Source of the DNA: Alkalihalophilus pseudofirmus
GTDB lineage: Bacteria > Bacillota > Bacilli > Bacillales > Bacillaceae_D
DNA: 64,000 nt
Assembly: GCF_029094545.1 (NCBI RefSeq)
Contig: NZ_CP117835.1
Location: 2,708,001-2,772,000 of the forward strand
Direction of reading: 5' to 3'
Shown here: piece by piece, positions 3,794 to 43,593 of the stretch
Numbering within the stretch: position 1 is the first letter of the stretch
Layout of the letters: every line of letters begins with the position of its first letter
Made by a program: the position numbers and the translations under genes
The notes under the pieces: generated by a model
Databases searched by the model: none
What the model was told of the DNA's origin: nothing
Seen by the model: only the letters and a program-made list of their open reading frames with translations

Positions 3794-3826
3794 AAAGCAG
3801 ATCAGAGAATTACTCAGGTCTGCTTT
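3794..3826. terminator. Terminator between ylbJ and coaD
   Basis: Inverted repeat AAAGCAGATC/GGTCTGCTTT (10 bp, one G-T pair) followed by a T-rich run, between convergent genes. Confidence 0.7.
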
Positions 3827-3834
3827 CTTTTTGC

Positions 3835-4931
<1,097 letters not shown>

Positions 4932-5039
4932 ACTATCCACCTAACTTTCTTTAACCATTCTTCATCATCCTACCATAAATCCCCTTAAACAAGCACTATC
5001 AGATCATCTAACTTTTTTAATACATCATGTATATTGCCC

Positions 5040-5213
5040 AAATGTTTTGTTCATAATGACAGATAGCGGCATTGATTCAATGTTGCGACAACCGCGGAGA
5101 AGACTTACGTTTCCCCATAAGTTCTTCCTCCGGTTTCTCCTCTCCCATAGCCTAGTACATACATAGGTATGTTACATGGCACCTCGTAAGTTCATCTTAC
5201 GAGGCTTTTTTTT
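5040..5213 (+). ncRNA. Putative structured RNA divergent from rsmD (position of the Rfam ylbH leader motif)
   Basis: Four successive stem-loops end in a textbook terminator although no gene lies upstream on this strand. Stem 1 is 5066-5074 with 5078-5086 (9 bp, two G-U). Stem 2 is 5095-5107 with 5118-5133 (about 13 bp, two small bulges). Stem 3 is 5157-5162 with 5167-5172 (6 bp). The last is the terminator stem. Rfam lists a ylbH leader motif beside this gene in Bacillus; identity with it is inferred from location only. The 5' end is a guess; no strong promoter was found. Confidence 0.55.
5182..5213 (+). terminator. Orphan Rho-independent terminator
   Basis: Perfect 9-bp stem CCTCGTAAG/CTTACGAGG, 5-base loop, then C and eight T. 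The T tract exists only on the plus strand, so it ends a rightward transcript that begins after rsmD. Confidence 0.85.
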
Positions 5214-5266
5214 GTCTCGACATTCCAATGAAGACATGCTACATTTTTTGTGTGCTGTTTTTCTGT

Positions 5267-5344
5267 TTTTGTAATACATATTTTGTAATACATATTTTGT
5301 AATACATAGTAATACATAATTCGTAATACATATTTTGTAATATT
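5267..5344. repeat. AT-rich tandem repeats, unit TTTTGTAATACATA
   Basis: About five and a half copies of a 14-base unit, some shortened (GTAATACATA) or varied (ATTCGTAATACATA), directly upstream of the gene at 5395. Not a CRISPR: there are no spacers. Confidence 0.85.
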
Positions 5345-5394
5345 AGCGTGCAATTTATTTATTAAATGCTTTGCTGAAAAAGGAGAGACTGGAA

Positions 5395-5784
5395 TTGATT
5401 CAACGATTCATAGAACTTGGCGAGGGGTACTCTGATATTTATGAACTGCTTGAACTAGCTCGTTTGAATAGAGAACGTATCCACCGTTTAATACGTTTAG
5501 ATACAACAATAGGCAACAATGAAAAAACATCTTTAGCTGTGGTGTTAGAGCCTGCTGCACCCGGGAAACTTATGCCGATCTATATTTGCAGAGAAGGCGT
5601 GACAAACCCTGATGTAACTCCTAATCAAAGGTATGATTTATTCTCAGAGATGGCAGAGGAGCTTGACCTTACTATCCATAGTTTATCAGTCAAAGATTCT
5701 AAGCAATTTAAAGAAGACGAATTATACTATCAATATCTTATCGGTATTTTACGTATGAACCGCTATATTCCTCCTCTTCAATAG
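5395..5784 (+). CDS. Conserved Bacillus hypothetical protein (DUF7147-like)
   Basis: 129 residues from a TTG at 5395, chosen because AAGGAGAG ends seven bases before it; the longer in-frame start at 5371 would lie upstream of that site. The sequence starts MIQRFIELGEGYSDIYELL and has no signal peptide. It resembles a small conserved Bacillus family sometimes labelled methylthioribose kinase in old annotations; the length is far too short for that kinase and I see no kinase motif, so the function is unknown. Convergent with the MFS gene. Confidence 0.7.
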   Translation: MIQRFIELGEGYSDIYELLELARLNRERIHRLIRLDTTIGNNEKTSLAVVLEPAAPGKLMPIYICREGVTNPDVTPNQRYDLFSEMAEELDLTIHSLSVKDSKQFKEDELYYQYLIGILRMNRYIPPLQ

Positions 5785-5817
5785 GCATTCGTCGCGGCAC
5801 TATTCAAATCAAAAGCA

Positions 5818-5850
5818 AGAAAGCTGCTCTCTAATGAGAAGCAGCTTTCT
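5818..5850. terminator. Bidirectional terminator
   Basis: 11-bp perfect stem AGAAAGCTGCT/AGCAGCTTTCT and T run. It overlaps the stop of the leftward MFS gene. Confidence 0.8.
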
Positions 5851-7063
5851 TTTTTTGATGAAATTCCCTCATAAATAACCGTTCTGCTGGCGGCAGAACT
5901 TTAAGCTTTACTATGGCTACATTTACAAGAAGAATTGCAGCACACACTAAAAACAAACCGCGTACTCCAACATTTGCTATGATCCAGCCGCCAATGATTG
6001 GCCCAATCATTGTGCCAAGATACATAGCACTGTTTGAAAAGCCATACGTCCTGCTCTCCATCCCATTCGGGGCATGTAGACGTATTAGTGTATTAGCTGC
6101 TGGCAGAAGGCCTCCTAGACAAAGACCTACCATAAACCTCAAGGCAATTAACTGCCATATGTCTGCAACAAAAGCTTGAGGGATTGAAAACATGGCAACG
6201 CCAAGCATAGAGTAAATCAAAACATGATGAGCGCCTTTTTTATCACTCAGCTTACCAAGAAACGGAGCGGTCATCATATTAGCAAATCCCATTACAGATA
6301 TAGCTAGCCCTGCAAAGAATGCCACATTTTCTGCAGGTGTTAATTCTGTTACGAACAAAGAAAGCAGCGGGTTCACACCCATAATCGCTAATTGAATTAA
6401 AAAGATAACTAAATAAAGAGATAATACAGGTTTTTGCTTCGTTACAGCTATAAAGTCCTCTTTCGTGCTAGTTTTCTGTTCCTTAGAAACTGGGGTAAAT
6501 GACTCACGTACGAAGAACAACACGCCTAAAGCAGCAACCAAAATACATAATCCAGTTAAAAAGAAAACCATTTGATAACTGAAGGCCTGTGCCATTACAC
6601 CTCCAATTAAAGGGCCGCATATAGCTCCTGCTACAGTTCCTGATTGCAGCACACCTAAAGCATAGCCCACTTTTTCCTTTGGAGTATTAGTGGATACAAG
6701 ACCAATCGAGGCTGGGATAAAACCAGAGATCACCCCGTTTAATAGTCTTAAAATCAAAAGAGAAACCGGACCTGTAGCAAATCCAGTTAAACTAATAACT
6801 AAAGCCATACCAAAACCCGACCGTAAGATCATCATTTTTCGTCCATGTCGATCAGCCATTCTTCCCCAAAATGGTGAAAATAAAAAGGCCGTTAAAAAGT
6901 TAGCCCCAAAAATAATACCAGCCCACAGACTTAACGTCTGTGGGTTCGTCACACCAAGTTCTTTTAAATACAGGGGAAGAAAAGGGATAATCATAGTCAT
7001 AGCACTCATTACGATAAATTGACAGACAACTAAAATACGTAAATTTCGTTTCCAACCGTCCAC
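5831..7063 (-). CDS. MFS transporter, DHA1-type drug efflux
   Basis: 410 residues from GTG at 7063, preferred because AGAGGAAGT lies seven bases upstream; the longer ATG at 7093 has no ribosome site. Twelve predicted membrane helices. The MFS motif A, GRMADRHGRKMM, is between helices 2 and 3 (about 67-78), and motif C-like GLLQSGTVAG-type glycine spacing is seen in helix 5 (LGVLQSGTVAGAICGP). This fits proton-coupled multidrug exporters of the 12-helix DHA1 family, but the substrate cannot be told. Monocistronic between two terminators. Confidence 0.85.
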   Translation of the reverse strand: MDGWKRNLRILVVCQFIVMSAMTMIIPFLPLYLKELGVTNPQTLSLWAGIIFGANFLTAFLFSPFWGRMADRHGRKMMILRSGFGMALVISLTGFATGPVSLLILRLLNGVISGFIPASIGLVSTNTPKEKVGYALGVLQSGTVAGAICGPLIGGVMAQAFSYQMVFFLTGLCILVAALGVLFFVRESFTPVSKEQKTSTKEDFIAVTKQKPVLSLYLVIFLIQLAIMGVNPLLSLFVTELTPAENVAFFAGLAISVMGFANMMTAPFLGKLSDKKGAHHVLIYSMLGVAMFSIPQAFVADIWQLIALRFMVGLCLGGLLPAANTLIRLHAPNGMESRTYGFSNSAMYLGTMIGPIIGGWIIANVGVRGLFLVCAAILLVNVAIVKLKVLPPAERLFMREFHQKKKAASH

Positions 7064-7218
7064 AACGATCACTTCCTCTTCTATTACACCCATTATATAT
7101 TTCGATTCACGAAGTATTCAACAAGTAAAAACAGCCCTTTAACGCGTAAAAGAAACTGTAACAGCAGTTTAACTTCCGGAACCTCTTCGAATCTCTAAAT
7201 TTCTAATTTACATAAAAA

Positions 7219-7238
7219 AACCAGGTTATCACCTGGTT
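7219..7238 (-). terminator. Terminator of ylbG
   Basis: AACCAGGT/ACCTGGTT stem with a 4-base loop and a T run on the minus strand; it includes the last bases of ylbG. Confidence 0.75.
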
Positions 7239-7509
7239 AAATACCCATTTTATAATCATATTCTTTAGCCTTATCCGGCTTAGCATTTTGAAATTCAGTC
7301 TTGATGAAAGGTCTCATCGAAGGTTGAACATCACGCACGTAATGAAAGGATTGCAGCTTTTTTGTAATTTCCTCTACTTTATCCTGGTCACAATAGAAAA
7401 TAACATACTTCATCTTCTTAGAAACATATTGTACGTTTCCAAAACGCCTAAGCTGCCTTGCAAACTTAAGAGAAGTCAGCCATACAGCTATCCCTTGACG
7501 GTTCCCCAT
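7237..7509 (-). CDS. ylbG: YlbG family protein (DUF2129)
   Basis: 90 residues from the ATG at 7509, the B. subtilis length. An ATG seven codons earlier is rejected because AAGGAG lies between the two. The protein is small, soluble and basic, with aromatic-rich strands (KKMKYVIFYCDQD) in a DUF2129 fold, and its function is unknown. In B. subtilis it lies between ylbF and rsmD; here an MFS gene and a hypothetical gene have been inserted into that block and separate them. Confidence 0.9.
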   Translation of the reverse strand: MGNRQGIAVWLTSLKFARQLRRFGNVQYVSKKMKYVIFYCDQDKVEEITKKLQSFHYVRDVQPSMRPFIKTEFQNAKPDKAKEYDYKMGI

Positions 7510-40526: not shown

Positions 40527-40531
40527 CAAAA

Positions 40532-40561
40532 AAGCATGCCCCCGTTATGAGGGGCATGCTT
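40532..40561. terminator. Bidirectional terminator for speA and the SR1-like RNA
   Basis: Perfect 11-bp stem AAGCATGCCCC/GGGGCATGCTT between convergent ends; T-rich both ways. Confidence 0.88.
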
Positions 40562-40570
40562 CTTTTATAA

Positions 40571-40696
40571 TTATTTTTGCTTCTTAGCTGATTTGCAGTC
40601 AATACAGTTATGTCCTTGAGCATAAAGTTTTGTAACCTTTTCACCTTCAAAATGTTCGATCGTCTTGTTGCAGTTTTGGCAAATGATTGTACCCAT
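40571..40696 (-). CDS. sr1P: GapA-binding peptide SR1P (SR1 dual-function RNA)
   Basis: 41 residues, starting MGTIICQNCNKTIEHFEGEK, closely like B. subtilis SR1P (MGTIVCQDCNEAI...). CxxC pairs at 6/9 and 31/34 form a probable zinc site. In B. subtilis SR1P binds glyceraldehyde-3-phosphate dehydrogenase GapA and promotes its interaction with RNase J1, while the RNA also represses ahrC translation. Ribosome site AAAGGGGATG. It is encoded beside speA, as known for SR1. The transcript (about 40740 to 40532) would be roughly 210 bases, near SR1 size. Confidence 0.9.
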   Translation of the reverse strand: MGTIICQNCNKTIEHFEGEKVTKLYAQGHNCIDCKSAKKQK

Positions 40697-40747
40697 GAGA
40701 GCATCCCCTTTATGCGTTTTTGTAAGCGGTTTATTTTCTATAAATCT

Positions 40748-43458: not shown

Positions 43459-43593
43459 CTTGAAACACACCCTTTCTTAACTAGACCTTGTAAATCATAT
43501 CAAACTTTTTCCTAACTTGGTAGATGTGTATAACTTTTTTCGACATGCATCATACTAAATATGATTCAAGGCTGGTGCAAAAAGAGGGATATT

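Follow-up and report, generated by a model that had tools for sequence, protein, structure and literature searches.

Introduction

CsfG, a small RNA (sRNA) of spore-forming Bacillus relatives, was reportedly described in 2011 by Marchais. According to excerpts of PMC3574147, csfG in B. subtilis sits between ylbG and ylbH (rsmD); northern blotting for the leader strand of ylbH gave nothing, the reverse complement gave a strong signal, and the RNA detected was equated with CsfG. An RNA-seq table for B. licheniformis also lists CsfG as antisense at ylbG/ylbH (excerpt of PMC3871023). CsfG is controlled by sigma F and sigma G and resembles the sRNAs RoxS and FsrA (excerpts of PMC8216469 and PMC4409812). 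The designation S547 stands for a Bvs196 homologue in the excerpted text of PMC9147052 and for CsfG in that of PMC8216469.

The accounts of what CsfG does differ. The passages available from PMC8216469 and PMC9147052 give no known target, and those of the latter add that disrupting such sRNAs led to no obvious sporulation defect. The excerpt of PMC12456014 differs, having CsfG, jointly with KrrA, regulate sporulation, germination and competence mRNAs. The DNA itself is also listed under another name, as PMC4342826 and PMC3766115, in excerpts, count ylbH among the cis-regulatory motifs, at odds with a plus-strand reading of the locus. In an excerpt of PMC4634765 the ylbH leader was unseen, which was there ascribed to low expression.

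Results

A very probable copy of CsfG in A. pseudofirmus

The window analyzed here is the whole stretch of 64,000 nucleotides from Alkalihalophilus pseudofirmus. Based on our analysis, the element at 5063-5213 on its plus strand is very probably a copy of CsfG. An earlier note, made from the letters of the window, had taken this RNA for an orphan, which is wrong as the RNA is the known CsfG; the gene itself is an orthologue of a published sRNA and nothing unusual. The features of the locus are as follows.

4374..4940, minus strand: rsmD (ylbH), the divergent neighbour (PF03602, E 1.3e-60)
5029..5057, plus strand: promoter, forespore-type, sigma F/G-like GTATA-N18-CATAAT, exact pattern match (-35 GTATA at 5029-5033, -10 CATAAT at 5052-5057)
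5063..5213 (about), plus strand: predicted CsfG transcript, its start placed from the -10 box and its end from the terminator
5066..5086, plus strand: hairpin H1, which covaries and has plus-strand G.U pairs; 5 of 9 pairs changed on both sides
5087..5137, plus strand: hairpin H2, the strongly conserved core, with the C-rich loop GUUUCCCCA; loop 9-mer GTTTCCCCA identical in 127 of 150 loci
5132..5146, plus strand: C/U-rich segment GGUUUCUCCUCUCCC, a likely pairing seed; 5138-5149 unpaired in the predicted fold
5150..5180, plus strand: hairpin H3, whose sequence and length vary (alignment and predicted fold)
5182..5213, plus strand: intrinsic terminator and T tract; 8 of 9 pairs changed on both sides
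5092..5215, minus strand: RF00516 "ylbH leader" match, the reverse complement of CsfG (92.5 bits)
5371..5784, plus strand: DUF7147 protein gene, downstream of and co-directional with CsfG (PF23648, E 6.3e-54); starts at 5371 in the list of open reading frames, or at 5395 as the earlier note has it

The sole Rfam match at the locus, RF00516 (5215-5092, minus strand), scored well over the gathering score of 50, and so agrees in sequence and structure with that family. It and CsfG are the same DNA, with the Rfam model built on the opposite strand. The earlier note was right to prefer an independent RNA over a leader; the Rfam motif that it set apart from this RNA is not a separate thing. It had also named beforehand a match on the minus strand only as refuting, and the search returned just that, which is not taken as a refutation because it is attributed to Rfam having modelled the other strand. 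With the apparent novelty removed, what emerges is that an Rfam family in routine use for annotation still presents a conserved sporulation sRNA as an opposite-strand leader.

Our own covariance model, R1, matched 5060-5213 on the plus strand at 141.7 bits (E 3.2e-34), the R1 alignment containing the sequence of this element; R1 scores for members of alignment A1 (see below) are not independent. The 150 loci compared are 130 from the order, including the window copy (L001) and near-identical relatives, and 20 from the class, drawn from the better R1 matches, with class loci of weak matches lying outside the sample. The element adjoins ylbH (rsmD) on the opposite strand, as described for CsfG, and has the promoter, of the sigma F/G type by its sequence, the 3' intrinsic terminator and the unpaired C-rich regions. 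Its identity as CsfG is backed by sequence and locus, and its strand is supported by several indirect tests.

Two other observations concern the surroundings. Between the CsfG terminator and the DUF7147 gene, 5267-5342 holds a 14-nt unit (TTTTGTAATACATA) repeated in tandem about 5.7 times. Elsewhere in the window, 40528-40744 on the minus strand matches the SR1 sRNA of Rfam (RF02376, 76.1 bits, gathering 45).

Fold, terminator and covariation

The predicted transcript, taken as 5063-5212 on the plus strand, folds at -50.3 kcal/mol (z -7.06), with none of 200 shuffles as good; the longer interval 5040-5213 folds at -52.7 kcal/mol (z -5.15). The structured RNA and the terminator seen by the earlier note are real, its four stem-loops being revised to three hairpins and a terminator hairpin. 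A weak hairpin at 5040-5062 is unlikely to be in the RNA, as this stretch is mostly promoter, including the -10 box; the interval of 5040-5213 given before thus starts about 23 nt too early. The terminator-like hairpin (5182-5204) has 9 pairs, 5 of them G-C, and is followed by the T tract. Such sites numbered 7 in a scan of 3800-7500 against 2.4 in shuffles, and across the 130 loci the longest T run is 5-10.

Alignment A1 comprises 41 of 80 representatives, the most divergent being left out. Within it 97.2% of cells pair and 13 of 31 pairs changed on both sides; there are 94 cells with both-side changes compared to 24.7 in shuffles, a signal lost when the partners were slid. The compensatory changes among relatives to which the earlier note had looked are therefore present, and they sit in H1 and the terminator, no pair of H2 having both-side changes within A1. 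A putative switch, in which the 5' arm GGAGAA would pair with the linker UUCUCC, was tried and dropped on reading the alignment, because some lineages, such as f14 and L129-L131, alter the 5' arm with the linker the same or one base different.

Strand and orientation relative to rsmD

Folding alone leaves the strand undecided because the minus strand (5085-5215, z -5.62) folds about as well as the plus strand. As a strand test, single-sequence folding energy was uninformative, the plus strand being lower in 64 of 129 loci (the 130 with L103 left out). RNAalifold on the alignment gave -32.77 for plus and -32.50 for minus, with covariation terms of 2.91 and 1.97. G.U pairs, set against A.C combinations, lean to the plus strand. 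On A1, with the helices predicted for plus, the ratio of G.U to A.C was 34:2 in H1, 7:0 in H2 and 11:3 in the terminator, a count that omits 4 of the 31 pairs, among them 57-79, which is always G.U or unpaired. Over whole structures, plus had 92 G.U against 5 A.C, and minus, on its own structure, 49 against 20. Wobble thus favours the plus strand, though the test is not clean and gives a lean, not a proof.

The promoter lies outside the model used to choose the loci. Exact matches of the GTATA-N18-CATAAT type number 2 in the window against 0.16 expected. The second, GTATA-N17/18-CATAMT at 43528-43556 on the plus strand, is just 5' of a 359-aa ORF at 43561 and could be chance. In the looser form G.AT[AG]-N15-19-.ATA[AC]T at 45-130 nt 5' of the loop, the promoter pattern occurs in 112 of the 130 related loci and in 64 of the 80 that are non-redundant, compared to 1.9% of shuffles, 4 of 520 windows farther upstream and, for the reverse strand, 2 of 130 loci. 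Just 5 of the 20 class-level loci fit, though a GTATA-like -35 is visible by eye in most of them; therefore, it is the -10 box that does not keep to this spacing.

An RsmD gene adjoins the element in all 130 loci, divergently in 128. CsfG is co-directional with rsmD in L060, L095, L168 and L169, where the orientation of DUF7147 and ylbG to rsmD is unchanged. Among the best 80 of 421 named RsmD loci, CsfG is divergent in 73 and runs with rsmD in six; one locus (L304) is without the linker motif. The six are those of Metabacillus idriensis, M. indicus, M. mangrovi, M. kandeliae, Bacillus sp. SJS and a record under the title Peribacillus frigoritolerans F-D2, the last probably the same genome as the source of L060. 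Eight further loci titled Metabacillus are divergent. The F-D2 record (L236) is possibly misnamed: its CsfG is flipped, and its RsmD is 99% identical to the L060 query, with M. idriensis next at 97%.

Given the above, a leftward, cis-acting rsmD (ylbH) leader, which is how Rfam describes the element in RF00516, is a highly improbable alternative. The leader reading would explain the minus-strand match of 92.5 bits, the constant company of rsmD and a minus strand that folds as well as the plus. Against it, however, wobble leans to plus, the terminator with its T tract is oriented plus and the forespore-type promoter is conserved on that strand; in B. subtilis, per the excerpts of PMC3574147, the leader strand went undetected by northern blot. 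An in-place flip of an element with its own terminator, as in some Metabacillus, is also not expected for an rsmD leader. Of 14 genomes chosen for the absence of CsfG, 13 keep rsmD, with no CsfG-like stretch seen by eye in the 420 nt that precede it. On this indirect evidence, the RF00516 element is very probably not transcribed with rsmD as its 5' leader. Less probable still is a small protein-coding gene read from the minus strand, where the core does hold a good ribosome-binding site and start codon, a GGAGG-spaced ATG that would begin a peptide MGKRKSSPR...; the length of the frame varies between 3 and 70 codons across the 130 loci, the start codon is missing in 2, and the 15 translations compared diverge after the first residues. 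The independent rightward sRNA with its own terminator is the reading that promoter, terminator, wobble, orientation and literature support.

Conservation and association with sigG

The C/U-rich 15-mer GGTTTCTCCTCTCCC is identical in 149 of the 150 loci, a count in which losses of the core would go unseen because the loci were found with models containing it. Around this constant core, H1, H3 and the terminator vary. In the 20 class loci aligned, about 60 nt of core, paired arms included, are nearly unchanged.

RF00516 is present in all 41 genomes of the family and, at E <= 0.001, in 362 of 397 from the order, 358 of them over the cut-off. With sigG as a proxy for sporulation, a genome was called sigG-less if it had no TIGR02850 match stronger than 1e-43, where other sigma factors score; above this come values of 1e-87 and stronger. 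None of the 15 sigG-less order genomes has RF00516 over the cut-off, one (G285) having a sub-threshold match, and 24 of the other 382 also have no match over it. In the class sample, R1 matches occur in 237 of 267 genomes with sigG compared to 2 of 131 without, kinship being uncorrected; the two sigG-less matches are marginal (G714, E 3.1e-4; G739, E 1e-3). The curated sigG cut-off was passed by only 238 of the 398 class genomes. The 30 class genomes with sigG that have no R1 match belong mostly to family f49, where sigG is divergent. CsfG thus tracks sigma G and, by the sigG proxy, is restricted to endospore formers.

In genera g45 and g90 (20 of 36 genomes searched), R1 matches are weak only and do not exceed those of the sigG-less genomes. 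One of these genomes, G078, still has a shortened CsfG-like stretch, with linker and terminator, at its rsmD locus; among the seven further g45/g90 genomes examined, none was seen by eye to have such a stretch there. L172:1287-1425(-) is a shortened CsfG-like RNA that keeps linker and terminator and adjoins rsmD, in a host with divergent sigG. L235:1435-1587(-), from the 6.5-Mb class genome G493 of f50, is a CsfG-like stretch of 17.3 bits, treated as a possible decayed copy because no terminator was found.

Discussion

CsfG expression in A. pseudofirmus, its mode of action and its targets we infer as follows. In sporulating cells, mainly in the forespore, transcription would proceed rightward from the sigma-F/sigma-G-type promoter and would end at the RNA's own intrinsic terminator. 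The conserved C/U-rich loop GUUUCCCCA and the segment GGUUUCUCCUCUCCC may then pair in trans with the purine-rich Shine-Dalgarno regions of mRNAs, which would reduce translation of these mRNAs, a mode of action also proposed for the C-rich sRNAs RoxS/RsaE and FsrA; such trans-acting pairing is likely. Taken jointly, a rightward CsfG of about 150 nt, made mainly in the forespore from such a promoter, ended by its own terminator and pairing in trans, is the reading that we hold with good confidence.

Read from the sequence, the CsfG core is complementary to a good ribosome-binding site with its start codon, GGAGG-N8-AUG. Complements of the linker with up to 2 mismatches were not enriched in 10 genomes, at 100 sites (10 CsfG loci included) compared to 111 for a reversed control; therefore no target is named and none is excluded. 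Single linker-complement matches before possible starts occur in L219 and L225. The conservation of the paired arms of H2 exceeds the needs of seed pairing, which counts against the pairing mechanism. It is accordingly conceivable, though unlikely, that CsfG works mainly by binding a protein, such as an RNA chaperone, or the ribosome and not by pairing to individual mRNAs. The near-identical core of the class loci, arms included, and the lack of enrichment of complementary sites would fit protein binding, as would the co-immunoprecipitation of CsfG with Hfq in B. subtilis (excerpt of PMC3574147). However, the most constant parts of CsfG are C/U-rich and largely unpaired, like those of known pairing sRNAs, and the excerpt of PMC3574147 has the CsfG level just modestly lower without Hfq. 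That CsfG might slow translation initiation in the forespore as a whole, or bind a dedicated conserved partner, in place of regulating a handful of mRNAs is quite unlikely; we consider it because the core exactly complements an ideal start (GGAGG-N8-AUG-GGG-AAA) and is near-constant over about 60 nt, paired arms included, in the class loci aligned. The alignment, the sigG association and the Metabacillus flips form a compact data set on an sRNA for which the excerpts of PMC8216469 and PMC9147052 give no known target. In the literature searched, no mention was found of the flips or of the size of the sigG association, part of which the 2011 CsfG paper may cover.

Comparison with known systems

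The window copy is like B. subtilis CsfG, as known from the literature and from B. subtilis-group loci (g49 is taken as that group), in its rsmD-side locus, strand, core sequence, promoter type, terminator and C-rich regions. Unlike in four g49 loci, where ylbG adjoins CsfG, the window has the DUF7147 gene and an MFS gene between CsfG and ylbG. The RF00516 ylbH leader is the same DNA as CsfG; it differs in lying on the opposite strand, in being typed 'Cis-reg; leader' and in stopping before hairpin H1. RoxS/RsaE and FsrA have, like CsfG, several C-rich unpaired segments, and the likeness drawn here rests on these segments; unlike CsfG, they are under the control of ResDE and Fur, according to the excerpted text of PMC8216469.
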